10,265 bases of DNA from a bacterium UBP3_UBA6266 (GTDB lineage: Bacteria; Auribacterota; UBA6266), in assembly GCA_002440765.1 (NCBI GenBank), contig DJVC01000129.1, forward strand, positions 1 to 10,265, read 5' to 3'. Every line of letters begins with the position of its first letter. Positions within the stretch are counted from its first letter, which is position 1. Positions 1,535 through 5,989 of this stretch are shown here, piece by piece. The notes beneath the pieces are model-generated. The model ran no database searches. It saw nothing but the letters and a program-made list of their open reading frames with translations, and had not been told where the DNA came from. The translations under genes and the position numbers were made by a program.

Positions 1535-2200
1535 TTAATTTGTGTAGTTTAATATTTTTTTCATGATGTCACATTTTTTCCCAACCAGCCTAGCTGGTCT
1601 GGCACAAGCGTTTTCATTTTCCCGTAAACGAGCAACACGTTCACTGAAATTTTTTCTAGGCCCATTGGTAAATGTGATAAATTTTTTCTTTCGAGGTGTT
1701 CCTGTTTGAAAACTAACCAGGGATTCAATCAGGCGGTAGGTTTTTTTTGTCACGTCTTCAAAGTTTAATCCATTTTCCTCTAATAAACGTTTATTTTTCT
1801 TGGAATGTGTTCTGTCTTTACCGGTAACGGGACAATCCTGTTCAAGTGCCATATAATAAATAGTTTTGGTATCCAAAGTATTCTTCAATTTGAGTCCCTC
1901 TGCCCAATATTTAATATTGGGTAATGGACAAAATGGATCAAAGATTGAGTGTTCATTTAACAAGGGGAAGTTTACTACGAATAACACGATGATGTCAGCG
2001 TGTTCGAACACAGATAAGCGTTTTGGGAAAGCTCGAAGCGGATATCCATCGCCATATTTTCTTAACGCCCGCACTAATTCAGAAGTATTTTTGCCGTCGA
2101 GTAATTCATTTAAAACAGAGTTTGGCAGTTTTTTAAATTGACGAAAAAGTTCTTCATAAGCATTCTTTAATTCATTGTAATGATATTTTAATTTTTCCAT
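1535..2200 (-). CDS. Unknown protein, third gene of the ATPase operon
   Basis: Encodes 221 residues. Its ATG directly abuts the TAA of the upstream ATPase gene with no base between, so translation is probably coupled; AGAAGG just before the stop can act as the ribosome site. I do not recognise the family. The N-terminal 50 residues are helical and charged, the middle has a hydrophobic strand (ADIIVLFVVNFPLL) followed by a Pro/Cys-rich stretch (FDPFCPLPNIKYW), and the last 70 residues are strongly basic (GTPRKKKFITF, NFSERVARLREN). The basic tail could bind nucleic acid; that is inference. Its constant partner should be the ATPase if the operon is a functional cassette. The gene is AT-rich like the rest of the operon. 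Confidence 0.7.
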   Translation of the reverse strand: MEKLKYHYNELKNAYEELFRQFKKLPNSVLNELLDGKNTSELVRALRKYGDGYPLRAFPKRLSVFEHADIIVLFVVNFPLLNEHSIFDPFCPLPNIKYWAEGLKLKNTLDTKTIYYMALEQDCPVTGKDRTHSKKNKRLLEENGLNFEDVTKKTYRLIESLVSFQTGTPRKKKFITFTNGPRKNFSERVARLRENENACARPARLVGKKCDIMKKILNYTN

Positions 2201-3514
2201 TTAATAGCCTTCTTTTTCATTTTGATACTCACGCCAAGCAGAATTGAATGTTTCAGATGATATTTCTATTGCATCTTTTACAGTATTGCAGTGTTCTTTA
2301 ATGAGTATGGATAGGAAACGGAAAGCATTTCTGGGCGTTGTCAAGTTTGTTATAATGTCGGCTTTTTCTTCACCCTTTTCACTAAACATACTGTGGATGG
2401 AAATGCTATTATTTTGGCTCGAACATGCCTTCATTCTCTTTTCAATAAGTTCCTTCATTTTTAAGTTTGTCCATTGAAGAGGACAAGTTGTTTTTACTCT
2501 ATCACTTCTATATTTTTTTCTGAGGTCTGCTAATTCAAATGGTAAAAACAATAGGACCCCGAGGTTTTTAACCTGAAGTAATTGGTCTTCCAATAAAGGA
2601 GAAATCAATTTTCTCATACCCTCCGAGTCCCCTTTAATACTGGTGGGTTCATCTACTCTGTCAACTAATAGGTAAATCCCCTTTAATTCCAGGCGGTCTA
2701 TTATTTCCATAAAATACCTGAAAAGGGAAAAACGATCCTCTGTATTCTGTGGGACACCAACTGTATCATAAAGCCCTACCCCGGTTGTTTGTACAGTGGC
2801 TAATGCGTCTTCAGTAGAAACAGGTATCCCCTTGATATTCAAATATATTTTTTCTGCTATTTCTTTTTTTTGTTTTTTCTTAAACCATTTCCCGCTTTTC
2901 TTGTATTTAAGGAGTGTCATTGTTTCTTTTAATTTCTTTAGTTTTTTAGATCGGTCGTTGGGTGCGTAATAAAGAGATATGAGCAAGAGAATCTTCTCGA
3001 TAAGATGGGAGCTTTCTTTAAAATGTTTTTTAACGTGTTTTTTGCCGGCATCTTTTATCTTTTTATCGATATGTTCCATAAAACTCTCAATCCCGAGTTT
3101 CAATATATTATCCAAGTGATCATCTAATGTAATCTCTCGATTTTCATGACCTTGATATTCTATGCGGGAGAAAAAGACAAATCTGCGGACTTTTTTAGGA
3201 ATTTTTCTGGGTTTCTTTTTTTCGCTTAATAGTTCATTGAAATCAATGTATTTGATAATCAATATCTCTTTAGATGGGTTTTCTTTGTTATATTTCTTTA
3301 GTGCTTTTTCGGCAAAAATTCTCATGGCAGATTTCCCGGAACCTCTTATGCCGAATATTACATATGGCGTGGGAGTGTCAAATTGGTTCAATATAGATTC
3401 AAGCGATGTGTTTTGTACTAACGAGTTATCCAAATAAGGGTCTTTATCTGCATCAACGATAACAAAAGGGTCCCCCTTAAATCCCATTTTAGTTAACCAT
3501 AAATCGACTTCCAT
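2201..3514 (-). CDS. P-loop ATPase, Sll1717/ORC-CDC6-like
   Basis: Encodes 437 residues from an ATG at 3514 with AAGGGGGC as ribosome site, which overlaps the stop of the preceding gene. Residues 10-30 (MGFKGDPF then ADKDPYLDN) and the Walker A loop G55-IRGSGKS62 open an ATPase core. Walker B is LLVDRVDE with acidic residues D285, D288 and E289. Later come a sensor-like segment (VLLFLPFELADLRKKY) and a C-terminal TTPRNAFRFL motif. The arrangement resembles the Sll1717 / ORC-CDC6-type P-loop ATPases that recur in accessory loci. A lysine-rich helical insert at about 95-225 is unusual and may be a partner- or DNA-binding region. It sits between a membrane protein and an unknown basic protein. 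Likely an NTP-driven switch; the substrate is unknown. The family assignment is from memory of the motif pattern. Confidence 0.72.
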   Translation of the reverse strand: MEVDLWLTKMGFKGDPFVIVDADKDPYLDNSLVQNTSLESILNQFDTPTPYVIFGIRGSGKSAMRIFAEKALKKYNKENPSKEILIIKYIDFNELLSEKKKPRKIPKKVRRFVFFSRIEYQGHENREITLDDHLDNILKLGIESFMEHIDKKIKDAGKKHVKKHFKESSHLIEKILLLISLYYAPNDRSKKLKKLKETMTLLKYKKSGKWFKKKQKKEIAEKIYLNIKGIPVSTEDALATVQTTGVGLYDTVGVPQNTEDRFSLFRYFMEIIDRLELKGIYLLVDRVDEPTSIKGDSEGMRKLISPLLEDQLLQVKNLGVLLFLPFELADLRKKYRSDRVKTTCPLQWTNLKMKELIEKRMKACSSQNNSISIHSMFSEKGEEKADIITNLTTPRNAFRFLSILIKEHCNTVKDAIEISSETFNSAWREYQNEKEGY

Positions 3515-3523
3515 AAAGCCCCC

Positions 3524-4039
3524 TTATGTTTGTTTTAAAGATTTTTTATTGCTTAACATATATTTGATATATTTGAGCTTAAATATACACATTTTTATTT
3601 TATATGCAAGAACGAACCCTCTCTTTGCCCAGTCATAATTTGTTTGTTTATTTTCTCCGCATATAAAATGAAGCTTTATAATATTTCCTTCCAAAATTTC
3701 ATAATCAGTTACATATTGGAGGTACTGCCAGGTATCTTTAAGCTTTAATGAAACGGGTTCTTCTACTGCTAAACTAGGGTGCAAGTGAATGTTTTCATCT
3801 TTGCCAATAAGACTAATGTTCCCTTTGTCTAAACTAAATTCCTCATTTATGGTAACGTTTTTAAATAGACTTGAATAGAAAGCCAAAAATGCTATAAAAA
3901 TTAACATGATGATATAACCGCATAATTTCCAATAATTTCTTTTTTGCTTTCGACACTCAGTTATTATTTTTGCGATATCGAAAACTATAGCAATTAATAG
4001 TGCGAGAAAAATACATACTTGACCAATATAATCTAACAT
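3524..4039 (-). CDS. Two-helix membrane protein, first gene of the ATPase operon
   Basis: Encodes 171 residues from an ATG at 4039 preceded by GGGAAGGG. Two transmembrane segments are visible at about 4-27 (IGQVCIFLALLIAIVFDIAKI) and 40-60 (LCGYIIMLIFIAFLAFYSS), joined by a short basic loop (ECRKQKRNYWK). The remaining 110 residues form a soluble domain with beta-strand character and one W-A-K-R segment, ending in a very basic tail (KCI..KLKYIKYMLSNKKSLK). No family recognised. The spacing to the ATPase gene is 9 bases, so the two are co-translated. A membrane anchor or effector next to an ATPase is a layout seen in defence and signalling cassettes, but nothing here proves that role. Confidence 0.68.
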   Translation of the reverse strand: MLDYIGQVCIFLALLIAIVFDIAKIITECRKQKRNYWKLCGYIIMLIFIAFLAFYSSLFKNVTINEEFSLDKGNISLIGKDENIHLHPSLAVEEPVSLKLKDTWQYLQYVTDYEILEGNIIKLHFICGENKQTNYDWAKRGFVLAYKIKMCIFKLKYIKYMLSNKKSLKQT

Positions 4040-4095: not shown

Positions 4096-4124
4096 CTTAT
4101 ACCATATTTTTTATAGCAAGTAAA
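4096..4124 (-). promoter_or_regulatory. Promoter of the three-gene ATPase operon
   Basis: Read on the minus strand, TTTACT (4124-4119) and TATAAG (4101-4096) are 17 bases apart, and the -10 carries the TG-n extension (TGGTATAAG). Transcription would start near 4089, leaving a leader of about 50 bases before the ATG at 4039. It lies between the tRNA-Ser terminator and the operon, so the operon is independent of the tRNA. Confidence 0.6.
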
Positions 4125-4201
4125 TTCCTAATTCAAATGTCTTAGAGTGGTTTGATGTTGTGGATTTTGCTGCGTGAGTTCTCAAACTACACACCTGCTA
4201 T

Positions 4202-4236
4202 AAATAAAAAACCCCCATAAAGGGGGTGTTTTATTT
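4202..4236 (-). terminator. Intrinsic terminator of tRNA-Ser(UGA)
   Basis: Arms 4202-4216 and 4222-4236 pair over 15 positions with one mismatch, built on CCCCC/GGGGG with a 5-base loop. On the minus strand the GGGGG arm is followed by TTTTTT, directly after the CCA end of the tRNA. The mirror T-run is weaker on the + strand (GTTTTATTT), so it may stop both directions. Confidence 0.85.
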
Positions 4237-4237
4237 A

Positions 4238-4325
4238 TGGCGGAGGAGGTAGGATTCGAACCCACGGTCCCGTGAGGGACAACGGTTTTCAAGACCGCCG
4301 CGATCGGCCACTCTGCCACTCCTCC
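4238..4325 (-). tRNA. tRNA-Ser(UGA)
   Basis: An 88-base tRNA with encoded CCA (4240-4238). The acceptor arms are GGAGGAG and CTCCTCC with discriminator G. The anticodon loop is CTTGAAA, giving anticodon TGA at 4291-4289. A long variable arm (GTCCCTCACGGGAC) marks it as serine class, followed by the T-arm with GTTCGAATC. Reads UCA and other UCN codons. The 5' half is duplicated upstream at 4578-4757, and the GIY-YIG frame overlaps its first 37 bases. Confidence 0.95.
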
Positions 4326-4561
4326 GTGCTTATATTCTTCTTTAGCCAGCGTCTGCCCCCGCCCGATTTTAAATATCGTTCCCTCTTGGCGGCTTTTACT
4401 TTTGACTCATACTCTTCAAGCAATATTCTTTTCCAGGGGCGATATCTTTTTGTCCATCCGCCTCTGCCGGCGTTGTGGGCTTTTAATCATTCATCTGGCT
4501 TGGTGCTGCTTCCGATATAAAGTTTTTTGCTGGAGCTTAAAAGAACATATACGTAATACAT
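4289..4561 (-). pseudogene. GIY-YIG nuclease domain frame with one internal stop, overlapping tRNA-Ser
   Basis: From ATG at 4561 the frame reads MYYVYVLLSSSKKLYIGSS, with the GIY-like YVYVL and the YIG motif, then TKPDE, a TGA at 4489-4487, and LKAHNAGRGGWTKRYRPW, ILLEEYE, AAKRERYLKSGGGRRWLKKN. This is a complete small GIY-YIG domain of the YhbQ/UPF0213 kind, about 79 residues, including the expected A-x-x-R-E-x-x-L-K with the metal-binding Glu. The stop replaces the Arg that aligns with the catalytic R27 of I-TevI (CGA to TGA is one transition). After ST79 the frame continues into the tRNA and ends at the TGA that is the tRNA anticodon. No ribosome site is clear before the ATG. As it stands it should yield only 24 residues, so I call it a pseudogene; a sequencing error at one base is the alternative. 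Confidence 0.8.
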
Positions 4562-4587
4562 AATTATACAATTTTTTAACGGTTTTT

Positions 4588-4634
4588 CGCGTGATTATAT
4601 TTAAACTTCTGCGGCAGTTTAAATATAAAACGCG
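4588..4634. repeat. Palindrome D, inserted at the anticodon-loop position of the tRNA-Ser fragment
   Basis: Arms TTATATTTAAACT and AGTTTAAATATAA are perfect complements over 13 bases, extended outward by CGCGT / ACGCG with a small internal mismatch (GA against AA) and a loop of TCTGCGGC. Together with palindrome C it separates CTTG from AAAACCGTT of the tRNA copy. Confidence 0.75.
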
Positions 4635-4635
4635 A

Positions 4636-4668
4636 CCACGTTTTTCGTGCTTGCACGAAATCACGTGG
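4636..4668. repeat. Palindrome C, adjacent to D
   Basis: CCACGT (4636-4641) pairs with ACGTGG (4663-4668), and TTTCGTGC (4643-4650) with GCACGAAA (4653-4660), around a 2-base TT loop with small bulges. It abuts the tRNA piece CTTG and shares the ATCACGTG string with palindrome B. Confidence 0.75.
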
Positions 4669-4681
4669 CAAGACCGCCGCG

Positions 4682-4711
4682 ATCACGTGAAGAACTGCGT
4701 TCTTACGTGAT
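4682..4711. repeat. Palindrome B, inserted between D-arm and anticodon arm of the tRNA-Ser fragment
   Basis: ATCACGT (4682-4688) pairs with ACGTGAT (4705-4711), and AAGAAC (4690-4695) with GTTCTT (4699-4704), with one bulged G and a TGC loop. On the tRNA strand the trinucleotide GAT flanks both sides of the insert, which could be a short target duplication or chance. Confidence 0.75.
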
Positions 4712-4722
4712 TTTCATCGGCC

Positions 4723-4745
4723 GCTTCCGCCAAAGGCGGACAAGC
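4723..4745. repeat. Palindrome A, in the D-loop position of the tRNA-Ser fragment
   Basis: TCCGCC (4726-4731), AAA, GGCGGA (4735-4740) form a perfect hairpin, with outer GCT / AGC pairs. It replaces about three bases (AGT) of the tRNA D-loop. Short GC hairpins of this form are a recurring intergenic repeat in some candidate-phylum genomes, as I recall. Confidence 0.7.
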
Positions 4746-4767
4746 TGCCACTCCTCCGCGAAACATC

Positions 4768-4845
4768 AGTTATTGAGTTATTCAGTTAATAGTTATTAAG
4801 TTTTGATTATTAATTCTTTATTTCTTCCCCAGTAACTCAATAACT
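4768..4845. repeat. AT-rich inverted repeat
   Basis: AGTTATTGAGTTA (4768-4780) is the exact reverse complement of TAACTCAATAACT (4833-4845). The DNA between is made of imperfect AGTTATT-like units. A small hairpin CTGCC-ATCA-GGCAG follows at 4846-4859. The stretch from 4760 to about 4960 has no gene that I can see. Confidence 0.6.
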
Positions 4846-4968
4846 CTGCCATCAGGCAGTTAACTTAACACGACATAGATAAAAATGCAAGCGTATATTG
4901 TCCCGGCGAAAGTGGTTTTGCCGTTACAAAAATAGCGGGATCTTGTAATTTCCAACTCCTTCTCCGCG

Positions 4969-4977
4969 TGTTATATA
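4969..4977 (+). promoter_or_regulatory. Possible extended -10 promoter of the first PilZ gene
   Basis: TGTTATATA reads as TG-n plus a 4-of-6 match to TATAAT. It would start transcription near 4984, before the ribosome site at 4996-5003. No clear -35 is seen. Confidence 0.3.
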
Positions 4978-5009
4978 AAGGTGACATTGGGGGCGAAGGA
5001 GGTGGAGCG

Positions 5010-5375
5010 ATGAAAGAAGTAATCAGAGGTTATGAAAGACGTCAAAAGAGCCGGATGAGCGTTAAAGGGTTAATCCGCCTGAATGAGGAAAAACTTTTTT
5101 CAAAAGGCGACTTTATGAGCGCCCGGGTTTTTGATATATCCGAGGCCGGTGTTAAAGTCGCAGTTCCATTTCCTCTGAAGGATTCCTGTAATGTGAACCT
5201 GCATTTTCAGGGAAGGGATATGATAGTGCCCATTGTAATCAAAGGAAAAGTCTGCTGGACCAGAGCGGCAAGTTCCGGAGAAAAAAGGTTTACTGTTGCC
5301 GGAATTGAATTCAGGAACGCGACAAGAGCTATATTTGACAGGGTTGCCACAATGCTCATCGCGAATATGGCATGA
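5010..5375 (+). CDS. PilZ domain protein (first copy)
   Basis: Encodes 121 residues from the ATG at 5010, preceded by a near-ideal AAGGAGGT at 4996-5003. It is a single PilZ domain: the c-di-GMP-binding arginine motif RxxxR is R11-QKS-R15, and the second motif D/NxSxxG is D42-ISEAG47, followed by beta strands (NVNLHF, IVIKGKVCWTR, FTVAGIEF) typical of the barrel. It ends in a helix FDRVATMLIANMA. PilZ proteins bind cyclic di-GMP and relay it to motility, surface polysaccharide or transcription targets; the target here is unknown. A paralogue lies at 5618-5989 on the other strand with the same ending (FERVATMLYARML). Both binding motifs are intact, so nucleotide binding is likely. Confidence 0.88.
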   Translation: MKEVIRGYERRQKSRMSVKGLIRLNEEKLFSKGDFMSARVFDISEAGVKVAVPFPLKDSCNVNLHFQGRDMIVPIVIKGKVCWTRAASSGEKRFTVAGIEFRNATRAIFDRVATMLIANMA

Positions 5376-5597: not shown

Positions 5598-5617
5598 AAC
5601 AGTGTTTCCCGGGAAGA

Positions 5618-5989
5618 TTATAACATCCTTGCGTATAACATTGTCGCTACTCTTTCGAATAGCTTTCCATTTTGTGAGGTAAACTTTAATCCGGCAAGCG
5701 TGTAATCCTTATTATCCGATTTCAGGATTCTTGTCCAGAGTATAACCCCTTTCATTTCAATCGGCTTTATCATTTCTTTTGTCTGAAAGGAAAGGACTAC
5801 TTCCTGTTTCGGTTTTAATTGTTTTTCCGAAACTATCTTCGCGCCGCCTTCAGATATGTCATACATCTTTACTTCGAAGGGTTCGGTTTTCGCGAAGAGG
5901 GACTTTTCCAGTATTTTTATTTTCCCGCGGACTTTCAGGCGGCTGACTTTACGACGACCTTTAACAACCAGCTTGGGTTGTTTGATCAT
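5618..5989 (-). CDS. PilZ domain protein (second copy)
   Basis: Encodes 123 residues from the ATG at 5989, which has GGGGGGAAG directly upstream. A longer frame to 6073 exists, but its extra codons run through the promoter at 6022-6050, so I reject it. The PilZ signatures are R13-KVS-R17 and D44-ISEGG49, followed by barrel strands (EVVLSFQ, KGVILWTRIL, YTLAGLKF). The C-terminal FERVATMLYARML nearly repeats that of the first PilZ protein, so the two are paralogues from a duplication. Expected role: cyclic di-GMP receptor. It heads a two-gene unit with the zinc-finger protein. Confidence 0.88.
   Translation of the reverse strand: MIKQPKLVVKGRRKVSRLKVRGKIKILEKSLFAKTEPFEVKMYDISEGGAKIVSEKQLKPKQEVVLSFQTKEMIKPIEMKGVILWTRILKSDNKDYTLAGLKFTSQNGKLFERVATMLYARML

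Follow-up and report, generated by a model that had tools for sequence, protein, structure and literature searches.

Probable mobile elements built on a single GIY-YIG nuclease domain within bacterial tRNA genes, and a decayed copy at a tRNA-Ser(UGA) locus of the Auribacterota

The stretch of DNA analysed here (the window) is a contig of 10,265 bp, belonging to the 1.84-Mb genome, assembled in 140 contigs, of a bacterium of the phylum Auribacterota. On its minus strand, a broken copy of the 5' part of a tRNA-Ser gene (nt 1-45) is followed by a frame encoding a GIY-YIG nuclease and then by an intact tRNA-Ser(UGA). The results reported below make it probable that this arrangement is a decayed member of a family of tiny, single-domain GIY-YIG mobile elements that reside within the tRNA genes of bacteria without depriving the host of a complete tRNA.

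The complete tRNA-Ser(UGA) occupies positions 4238..4325 (ARAGORN; Rfam RF00005, 49.5 bits), with its anticodon TGA at 4291-4289, and a DNA search of its own genome, the assembly of which is 89.7% complete, found no second tRNA-Ser(UGA). The nuclease frame, recognised by PF01541 and by a homologue in the same-genus genome G002, extends over 4292..4561, with 90 residues between the ATG at 4561 and the anticodon stop. The broken copy lies further upstream on the same minus strand and is fragmented. Its nt 1-13 are found at 4745..4757 (blastn-short, 13/13 identical, E 0.003) and are followed by a 19-nt palindromic insert at 4726..4744, containing the hairpin TCCGCCTTTGGCGGA. Next come nt 14-23 at 4716..4725, with one mismatch, and a 31-nt palindromic insert with repeated GAT flanks at 4685..4715, which separates nt 23 from a block containing nt 21-36; the two inserts and the block of nt 14-23 were identified by direct reading. 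The block of nt 21-36, at 4669..4684, ends at the CTTG of the anticodon loop (blastn-short, 16/16 identical, E 5e-5). After this CTTG, within the anticodon loop of the broken copy, an 82-nt insert with two adjacent hairpins extends over 4587..4668 (pattern search and covariation), and nt 37-45, the 3' side of the anticodon arm, are found by sequence comparison at 4578..4586. The minus-strand order put forward in the original prediction is borne out, with pieces covering nt 1-45 and two exact blastn-short matches among them.

The inserted element measures 432 bp and contains, on its strand, no open reading frame (ORF) of 60 or more residues besides the GIY-YIG frame, and no integrase. Rfam scans of window positions 4100-5000 (E up to 1) and of eight loci (at gathering thresholds) detected no intron family, and a group I intron was rejected on these grounds. 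A terminator-like hairpin with a T run, located just 3' of the intact tRNA (4211..4227, minus strand), is a pattern match only: positions 4150-5010 contain three such patterns, compared with an expectation of 1.2 from shuffled sequences.

The frame reads into the tRNA and terminates at the anticodon TGA, as originally described, but it is not open from its ATG, being interrupted by an in-frame TGA at 4489-4487 (residue 25). When this stop is read through, the frame matches PF01541 with 57.3 bits against a cut-off of 22.6, which is exceeded by six of the seven matches in the same genome. The premature stop identifies the window copy as a pseudogene, and the copy is very probably inactive, since the TGA replaces an Arg present in 19 of 19 aligned homologues. 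At four loci of the window's clade (L051, L056, L057 and L058) the stop lies at or before the junction between ORF and tRNA. A functional fusion of the two was rejected because the position of the stop varies among loci, and the ending of the frame at the anticodon is, on the sequences compared, incidental.

Similar arrangements recur in many bacteria. Profile searches detected 102 GIY-YIG matches in 75 of 387 sampled Verrucomicrobiota genomes, a lower bound since scoring was limited to 14 candidates per genome, and 61 matches in 29 of the 44 genomes of the window's own phylum (E cut-offs 1e-15 and 1e-8). A same-strand tRNA lies within 200 nt of 48 of the former and 25 of the latter; these 25 comprise 20 of the 31 best-scoring matches and 5 of the 30 weaker ones, many of which are YhbQ-like by eye. 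The orientation is strongly biased: no opposite-strand tRNA is found within 200 nt of the Verrucomicrobiota matches, and within 700 nt 66 tRNAs are on the same strand and one is on the opposite strand. As a control, only 1 of 28 HNH-domain matches from the window's phylum is near a tRNA; this match, L287, is located 11 nt from a tRNA-Ser(GCT), has its stop inside it, and is possibly an HNH element of similar habit.

A partial tRNA copy on the other side of the ORF, anticipated for such loci by the original prediction, was found in most cases. A tRNA is located no more than 90 nt away at 56 distinct loci, 42 of which carry, beyond the ORF, a second, partial copy of this tRNA, compared with 13 of 672 when tRNAs of other isotypes were used as a control; at a stricter threshold of 30 matched nt the figures are 31/56 and 0/672. 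The 56 loci pool the matches from the two phyla with 16 of 40 close-homologue loci, identical ORFs being dropped, and, as these 16 were picked after tRNAs had been seen near most, 42/56 is a rate among near loci and not an abundance. The 40 loci derive from a scan of named-species genomes with close homologues: 15 of them have a same-strand tRNA whose start falls between -80 and +150 nt relative to the first stop of the ORF, and a clear 5' partial copy is located upstream of the ORF in 11 of these 15, the copy being weak in L065 and, by this test, absent in L049, L059 and L071.

At the near loci with two copies, one copy is broken at the insertion site while the intact tRNA remains, and the broken copies follow a definite polarity. 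At the 24 loci where the intact tRNA lies downstream, 21 copies begin at nt 1-3, the exceptions being L013 (from nt 13 in the script output, with a separate match to nt 1-11), L065 (nt 17) and L093 (nt 11). With the intact tRNA upstream (18 loci), 17 copies reach the last base and that of L117 is one base short. The 5'-half-first arrangement of the window is therefore recurrent but not the sole one, as a mirror form exists in which intact tRNA, ORF and broken 3' part follow each other. Isotypes with a partial copy include, besides Ser, Pro, Asn, Asp, Gly, Gln, Arg, Leu, Met, Thr and Cys. The anticodon region, originally proposed as the target, is not the site in every case: the copy ends in the T arm at L060 (Gln), L062 (Arg), L026 (Gly) and L041 (Asp). 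In L063 a second GIY-YIG ORF follows a further tRNA-Leu 3' remnant, forming an array.

The arrangement is not unique to one assembly, since it recurs, at the corresponding locus, in the separately assembled genome G002 (JAQUNG010000002.1), where the frame is 93% identical and open to the anticodon. Empty tRNA-Ser(UGA) sites, to be expected in relatives from the original prediction, were found both in the same family and elsewhere. In the same-family genome G003, a tRNA-Ser(UGA) 94% identical to that of the window lies beside a PilZ gene aligning to window positions 5605-5788, and neither half copy nor nuclease is present between the two. A 486-aa serine recombinase-like ORF, judged as such from sequence, adjoins this empty tRNA (G003, L043, 1493-2953, minus strand), so that another element also seems to use tRNA-Ser(UGA). 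Genome G001 gave no tRNA-Ser(UGA) match and is for this reason uninformative.

In the Pontiella family, 23 tRNA-Ser(UGA) loci were recognised among 30 fetched loci from 29 genomes, of which 3 are occupied and 20 empty. The empty loci contain no second copy of the first 20 nt of the tRNA in the fetched stretch, which for some of them includes little upstream sequence (186 nt for L166, 350 nt for L161), and a DNA query containing the ORF matched only their tRNA part. When the 45 nt preceding the broken half at the three occupied loci were compared to the 20 empty upstream regions, mean gapped identities of 0.65, 0.55 and 0.71 were obtained, against 0.28, 0.25 and 0.28 for the 45 nt preceding the intact tRNA. 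In addition, TATACATT is found in 11 of the 20 empty upstream regions and before the broken halves of G060 and G072. In these three Pontiella-family genomes, as distinct from the window, the native promoter precedes the broken half, and the element therefore lies inside the tRNA gene, downstream of its promoter. The copy in G072 is decayed, and retains the promoter, a 5' half with one hairpin, an ORF without start and the intact tRNA. In G060 and G065 the half copy does not differ from the corresponding sequence in several empty relatives, so that no foreign half is visible.

Other occurrences were observed in the same set of genomes. One element, 90% identical over 211 nt, is shared by L027 (G001, from 1437) and L038 (contig C33 of the window's genome, from 1437); it lies directly 3' of a tRNA-Asp in G001, the alignment starting at the 3' end of this tRNA, and no tRNA is predicted beside it in the window's genome. 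In the first 700 nt of contig C44 of the latter genome (L115), a GIY-YIG ORF has tRNA-Pro-like pieces on both sides, with scaffold gaps and no predicted tRNA; a related locus in G002 has a tRNA-Pro.

The GIY-YIG ORF is under purifying selection. Comparison of the window and G002 ORFs gave a ratio of non-synonymous to synonymous substitution rates (dN/dS) of 0.10, from 14 synonymous and 7 non-synonymous changes, and a Pontiella-family ORF pair gave 0.08, with dS about 1.5 and thus near saturation. An Arg and a Glu are invariant in the 19 aligned homologues, and the stop of the window copy falls at the Arg position. Arg and Glu residues are catalytic in GIY-YIG nucleases, according to PMC2988022, and by our own comparison the two invariant columns would correspond to them.

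Proteins of the family are 78-90 aa long, and a Pfam scan of one of them detected PF01541 alone. An AlphaFold2 model of the G002 homologue (predicted local distance difference test score, pLDDT, 85.5) has the GIY-YIG fold, and its best Foldseek matches are the UPF0213 protein 1zg2 (E 9.5e-4) and SLX1 7cq2 (E 4.6e-3). In sequence as in fold, the best matches are UPF0213 proteins and SLX1, the latter being named as a structure-specific endonuclease. No separate C-terminal DNA-binding domain, a trait of I-TevI, was found by protein length, Pfam scan or model. NCBIfam gave no name for three proteins tried, and PHROGs gave a single weak homing-endonuclease match, for L190 only. Six GIY-YIG proteins from databases (P0004, P0009, P0010, P0012, P0016 and P0026) have C-terminal tails resembling, by eye, translated tRNA or hairpin sequence, such as AGLAT/GLAT, CQSG and MAERSNAAVSKT, which are a possible quick marker for such loci.

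A tree was built on 95 rows and 79 columns, the rows being restricted to matches that have a tRNA up to 200 nt downstream or up to 260 nt upstream; given the few columns, many forks are unresolved. The clade of the window includes 16 rows, two of which (L052 and L182) are one gene, with a Shimodaira-Hasegawa-like approximate likelihood ratio test (SH-aLRT) support of 99. All its members are associated with tRNA-Ser, 15 with UGA and 1 with CGA anticodon, and it spans the window's phylum and records titled Omnitrophota, Lentisphaerae and Verrucomicrobia. A chance arrangement was rejected in view of this cross-phylum clade, the same-genus copy and the other-isotype control. A second clade, of 36 rows and also with SH-aLRT 99, is located on the 3' side of many tRNAs. 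On the whole tree, 46 isotype changes were counted against 54-60 in 200 shuffles, a moderate signal; for near loci they are 21 against 23-27, a small signal lying outside the shuffles, and in the 3'-side (far) group no signal is present (26 changes against 25-30).

Members of the 3'-side clade (L190, L203, L209, L196, L215, L217, L227 and others) have a conserved palindromic leader directly after the CCA, formed by CCTTCGC...GCGAAGG and then GCCC...GGGC, which is present in many of the 37 loci compared, these having been chosen for a 60-260-nt gap. In 14 leaders chosen from these loci, 7 of the 16 predicted pairs show compensatory changes. In L227 the ORF is followed by a repeat of the final 10 nt of the tRNA and of the leader.

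The palindromic inserts of the broken copy differ in their conservation. The 19-nt (4744-4726) and 31-nt (4715-4685) palindromes are missing from the G002 copy, which instead has lost part of the D arm. The 82-nt double hairpin was located in 12 places, has counterparts at related loci in other genomes, and was also seen, by reading the loci, independently of the GGTCTTG pattern on which the search was anchored. This search yielded 12 of the 13 sequences aligned, L057 being added by eye. Together with the anticodon stem, the double hairpin folds into a Y shape, in which 19 of the 30 predicted pairs show compensatory changes over the 13 sequences, three pairs of which are closely similar; the Rfam scans gave no family of this structure. 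Exactly nt 1-36, with the double hairpin after them, make up the copy in L050 (Omnitrophota), L051 (Pontiella sulfatireligans F21) and L056 (Verrucomicrobia); L058 also has nt 1-36, and the hairpin that comes next is single and shorter. L052, L054 and L055 are mirror images, with an intact tRNA-Ser, the ORF and then an anticodon arm carrying the double hairpin and the 3' part. In all seven loci the hairpin-bearing arm lies directly beside the ORF. In L061 several double hairpins surround one tRNA-Ser(UGA).

It may be, though we consider it rather unlikely, that the mobile unit is the palindromic, Y-shaped sequence itself, with the GIY-YIG protein acting as a structure-selective mobiliser of hairpin or branched, tRNA-like DNA. 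The compensatory changes by which the Y structure is conserved are consistent with this, and so are the different palindromic leader conserved in the 3'-side clade, the lack of a DNA-binding domain in the protein and its best matches, in fold and sequence, to UPF0213 and SLX1. The distribution of the hairpins argues the other way. A strict double-hairpin pattern gave 11 matches in 7 of 16 genomes, and missed known variants, the remaining 9 genomes having no match. Nine of the 11 are at tRNA-Ser/GIY-YIG loci, four of them in one cluster, and the other two are in the same-phylum genome G023, with no tRNA predicted around them; there is one match in the window's genome (G000) and one in the 7.4 Mb of Pontiella. 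The double hairpin is thus tied to such loci and is not a dispersed repeat, and a REPIN-like nature was rejected since it is not spread through the genomes. Moreover, some loci, such as L060, have a truncated copy without internal hairpin, and only 14 of the 42 partial copies contain a perfect hairpin exceeding in length all those of the intact tRNA and of 30 shuffles, in a test that counts perfect stems only.

In the reading preferred here, that of a nuclease-bearing element residing in the tRNA gene, the element would sit inside the one detected tRNA-Ser(UGA) gene, at the 3' edge of the anticodon arm. Upstream, the original 5' part of the tRNA would remain and decay, the ORF would come next, and the complete tRNA would be composed of a second 5' part and of the original 3' part. 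The nuclease would cut an intact tRNA gene, donor-templated repair would copy the element in, and only products keeping one full tRNA would survive. The transcript probably begins at the tRNA promoter, and RNase P would separate the nuclease message from the tRNA. In the majority of the Ser(UGA) members inspected, the broken anticodon arm with its hairpins directly adjoins the ORF; this arm probably belongs to the element, and perhaps represents an uncuttable form of the target.

The second tRNA part might be carried by the element and later homogenised, or might arise by local duplication during repair. The latter route is favoured because of the host-type identity of the copies, which are mostly identical where aligned; a foreign restoring part, as found in fungal mitochondrial mobile open reading frames (mORFs), was not seen among them. 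The insertion postulated in the original prediction is therefore retained as far as it concerns a nuclease-bearing element that enters at the anticodon arm and leaves a complete tRNA, but not in its foreign replacement half. Later homogenisation of the copies is possible. A broader proposal is offered only tentatively: a widespread class of elements, which would rank with the smallest autonomous ones and consist of one GIY-YIG domain of about 80 aa and a structured palindromic arm, may recognise folded tRNA- or Y-shaped DNA and not a long linear site, insert in the anticodon arm, the T arm or the 3' arm depending on the clade, use the tRNA promoter, rely on RNase P to split the message and be shielded from loss by the essential tRNA.

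Several observations weigh against the proposed elements. Foreign-half capture is not shown by copies that are mostly identical and host-type, and local duplication would look alike. The intact tRNA retains any target internal to the tRNA, which leaves self-protection unexplained, and a protein of 78-90 aa without separate DNA-binding domain is unusual for a site-specific homing enzyme; mobility and cleavage are both inferred. No same-strand tRNA is present within 200 nt for 54 of the 102 Verrucomicrobiota matches and for 36 of the 61 matches of the window's phylum. Fourteen of the 56 near loci have no detectable second copy, including L014, which belongs to the window's clade and has a 5' remnant by eye only, and L095, of the downstream type, also has a 9-nt match to the tRNA 3' end, contrary to the polarity rule. 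The sequence upstream of the window half copy visibly matches that upstream of the empty G003 gene by a few bases at most. Synonymous divergence (dS) between the window and G002 is patchy, ranging from 0.10 to 2.66 in four flanking genes and being 0.38 in the ORF, so that the arrival of the element cannot be dated. Finally, no relative was found in viral contigs or phage records.

In a rival explanation, a local tandem duplication of the tRNA gene would have trapped a GIY-YIG gene between the copies, the spare copy then decaying without anything moving. Copies that are mostly identical and host-type, the occurrence of both polarities and the presence of arrays (e.g. L063, L061) agree with such a process. 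We consider it improbable, since one clade of nucleases is found with the same tRNA in several phyla, many isotypes are affected, almost always on the same strand, empty sites are without trace in the stretch seen and the ORF is under purifying selection.

Purifying selection, along with a location shared between two genomes of the genus, would also be expected of a domesticated host nuclease, linked to tRNA genes for repair or defence and not selfish. This is still less probable: the occurrence is patchy, 20 of the 23 loci detected in the Pontiella family being empty, decayed copies are found in the window and in G072, the tRNAs differ between hosts and PADLOC gave no match for the G002 homologue. 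An assembly or binning artefact, suggested by the window being a single 10.3-kb contig in an assembly of 140, was rejected as next to impossible, given the same layout in separate assemblies, including that of strain P. sulfatireligans F21 on a 3.7-Mb contig.

Elsewhere in the window, three consecutive ORFs of 221, 437 and 171 aa without Pfam match are located at 1535-4039 on the minus strand; the middle one contains, by eye, a GIRGSGKS nucleotide-binding motif and has a weak PADLOC match (E 0.006).

A large, integrase-free family of nucleases residing inside tRNA genes would constitute a new class of selfish DNA, as well as a natural system in which essential RNA genes are broken and remade. 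Such a family could further account for annotations of small 'GIY-YIG nuclease family protein' entries, the C-termini of which are translated tRNA. Direct tests are possible, because the named strain Pontiella sulfatireligans F21 carries the element.

Integrase-encoding elements use tRNA genes as attachment sites, duplicate part of the tRNA and restore it. The elements described here share with them the tRNA target, the partial duplication and the restored tRNA, but the 432-bp insert has no integrase ORF, and the recombinase-like ORF of G003 belongs to a separate element. Two adjacent palindromes as an insert are known from mitochondrial double-hairpin elements and REPIN/RAYT systems; the paired palindromes are alike, whereas the double hairpin is here not genome-dispersed. 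The small GIY-YIG proteins UPF0213/YhbQ and SLX1 are similar to the family in fold and profile; the weaker, often YhbQ-like matches in the window's phylum differ in being seldom near a tRNA (5/30 vs 20/31).

In the open-access literature (titles and abstract openings, subscription journals being mostly outside its scope), none of the matches listed reported GIY-YIG elements of bacteria accompanied by partial tRNA copies, and bacterial tRNA-gene elements of this kind are not described in the portions covered of PMC13096335, PMC3630166, PMC2988022 and PMC10448857. Phage SegB and fungal mitochondrial mORFs are precedents. SegB, a free-standing GIY-YIG homing endonuclease of phages T4 and T6, cuts within tRNA genes, with the motif RAWTSGAAC at 23 of 83 sites (PMC13096335), so that a GIY-YIG nuclease targeting tRNA genes is not wholly new, contrary to the original suggestion. 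By our own comparison, the reverse complement of this motif is the consensus of the tRNA T arm, and it is in this arm that several copies described here end. The segB gene lies between tRNA-Arg and tRNA-Ile, its listed target being a tRNA intergenic region (PMC2988022). In both cases a GIY-YIG nuclease gene is located beside tRNA genes; segB, however, is part of a phage tRNA cluster, and no duplicated tRNA part around it is mentioned in the covered portions of PMC13096335 and PMC2988022, whereas the present elements are found in bacterial chromosomes and combine single-domain proteins of 78-90 aa with half-tRNA copies and structured inserts. The mORFs of Allomyces (atp6) and Glomus (atp6, atp9, cox2 and nad3) carry a replacement gene end, and that of Glomus atp9 encodes a GIY-YIG enzyme (PMC3630166). 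According to the same source, an endonuclease ORF is found there, as here, in an essential gene, flanked by a duplicated gene part, and one complete gene remains. The mORFs differ in that they occupy mitochondrial protein genes and bring in a C-terminal piece which is foreign and divergent (PMC3630166), while the elements described here occupy bacterial tRNA genes, may duplicate either end of them, and are accompanied by copies that are host-type and mostly identical.

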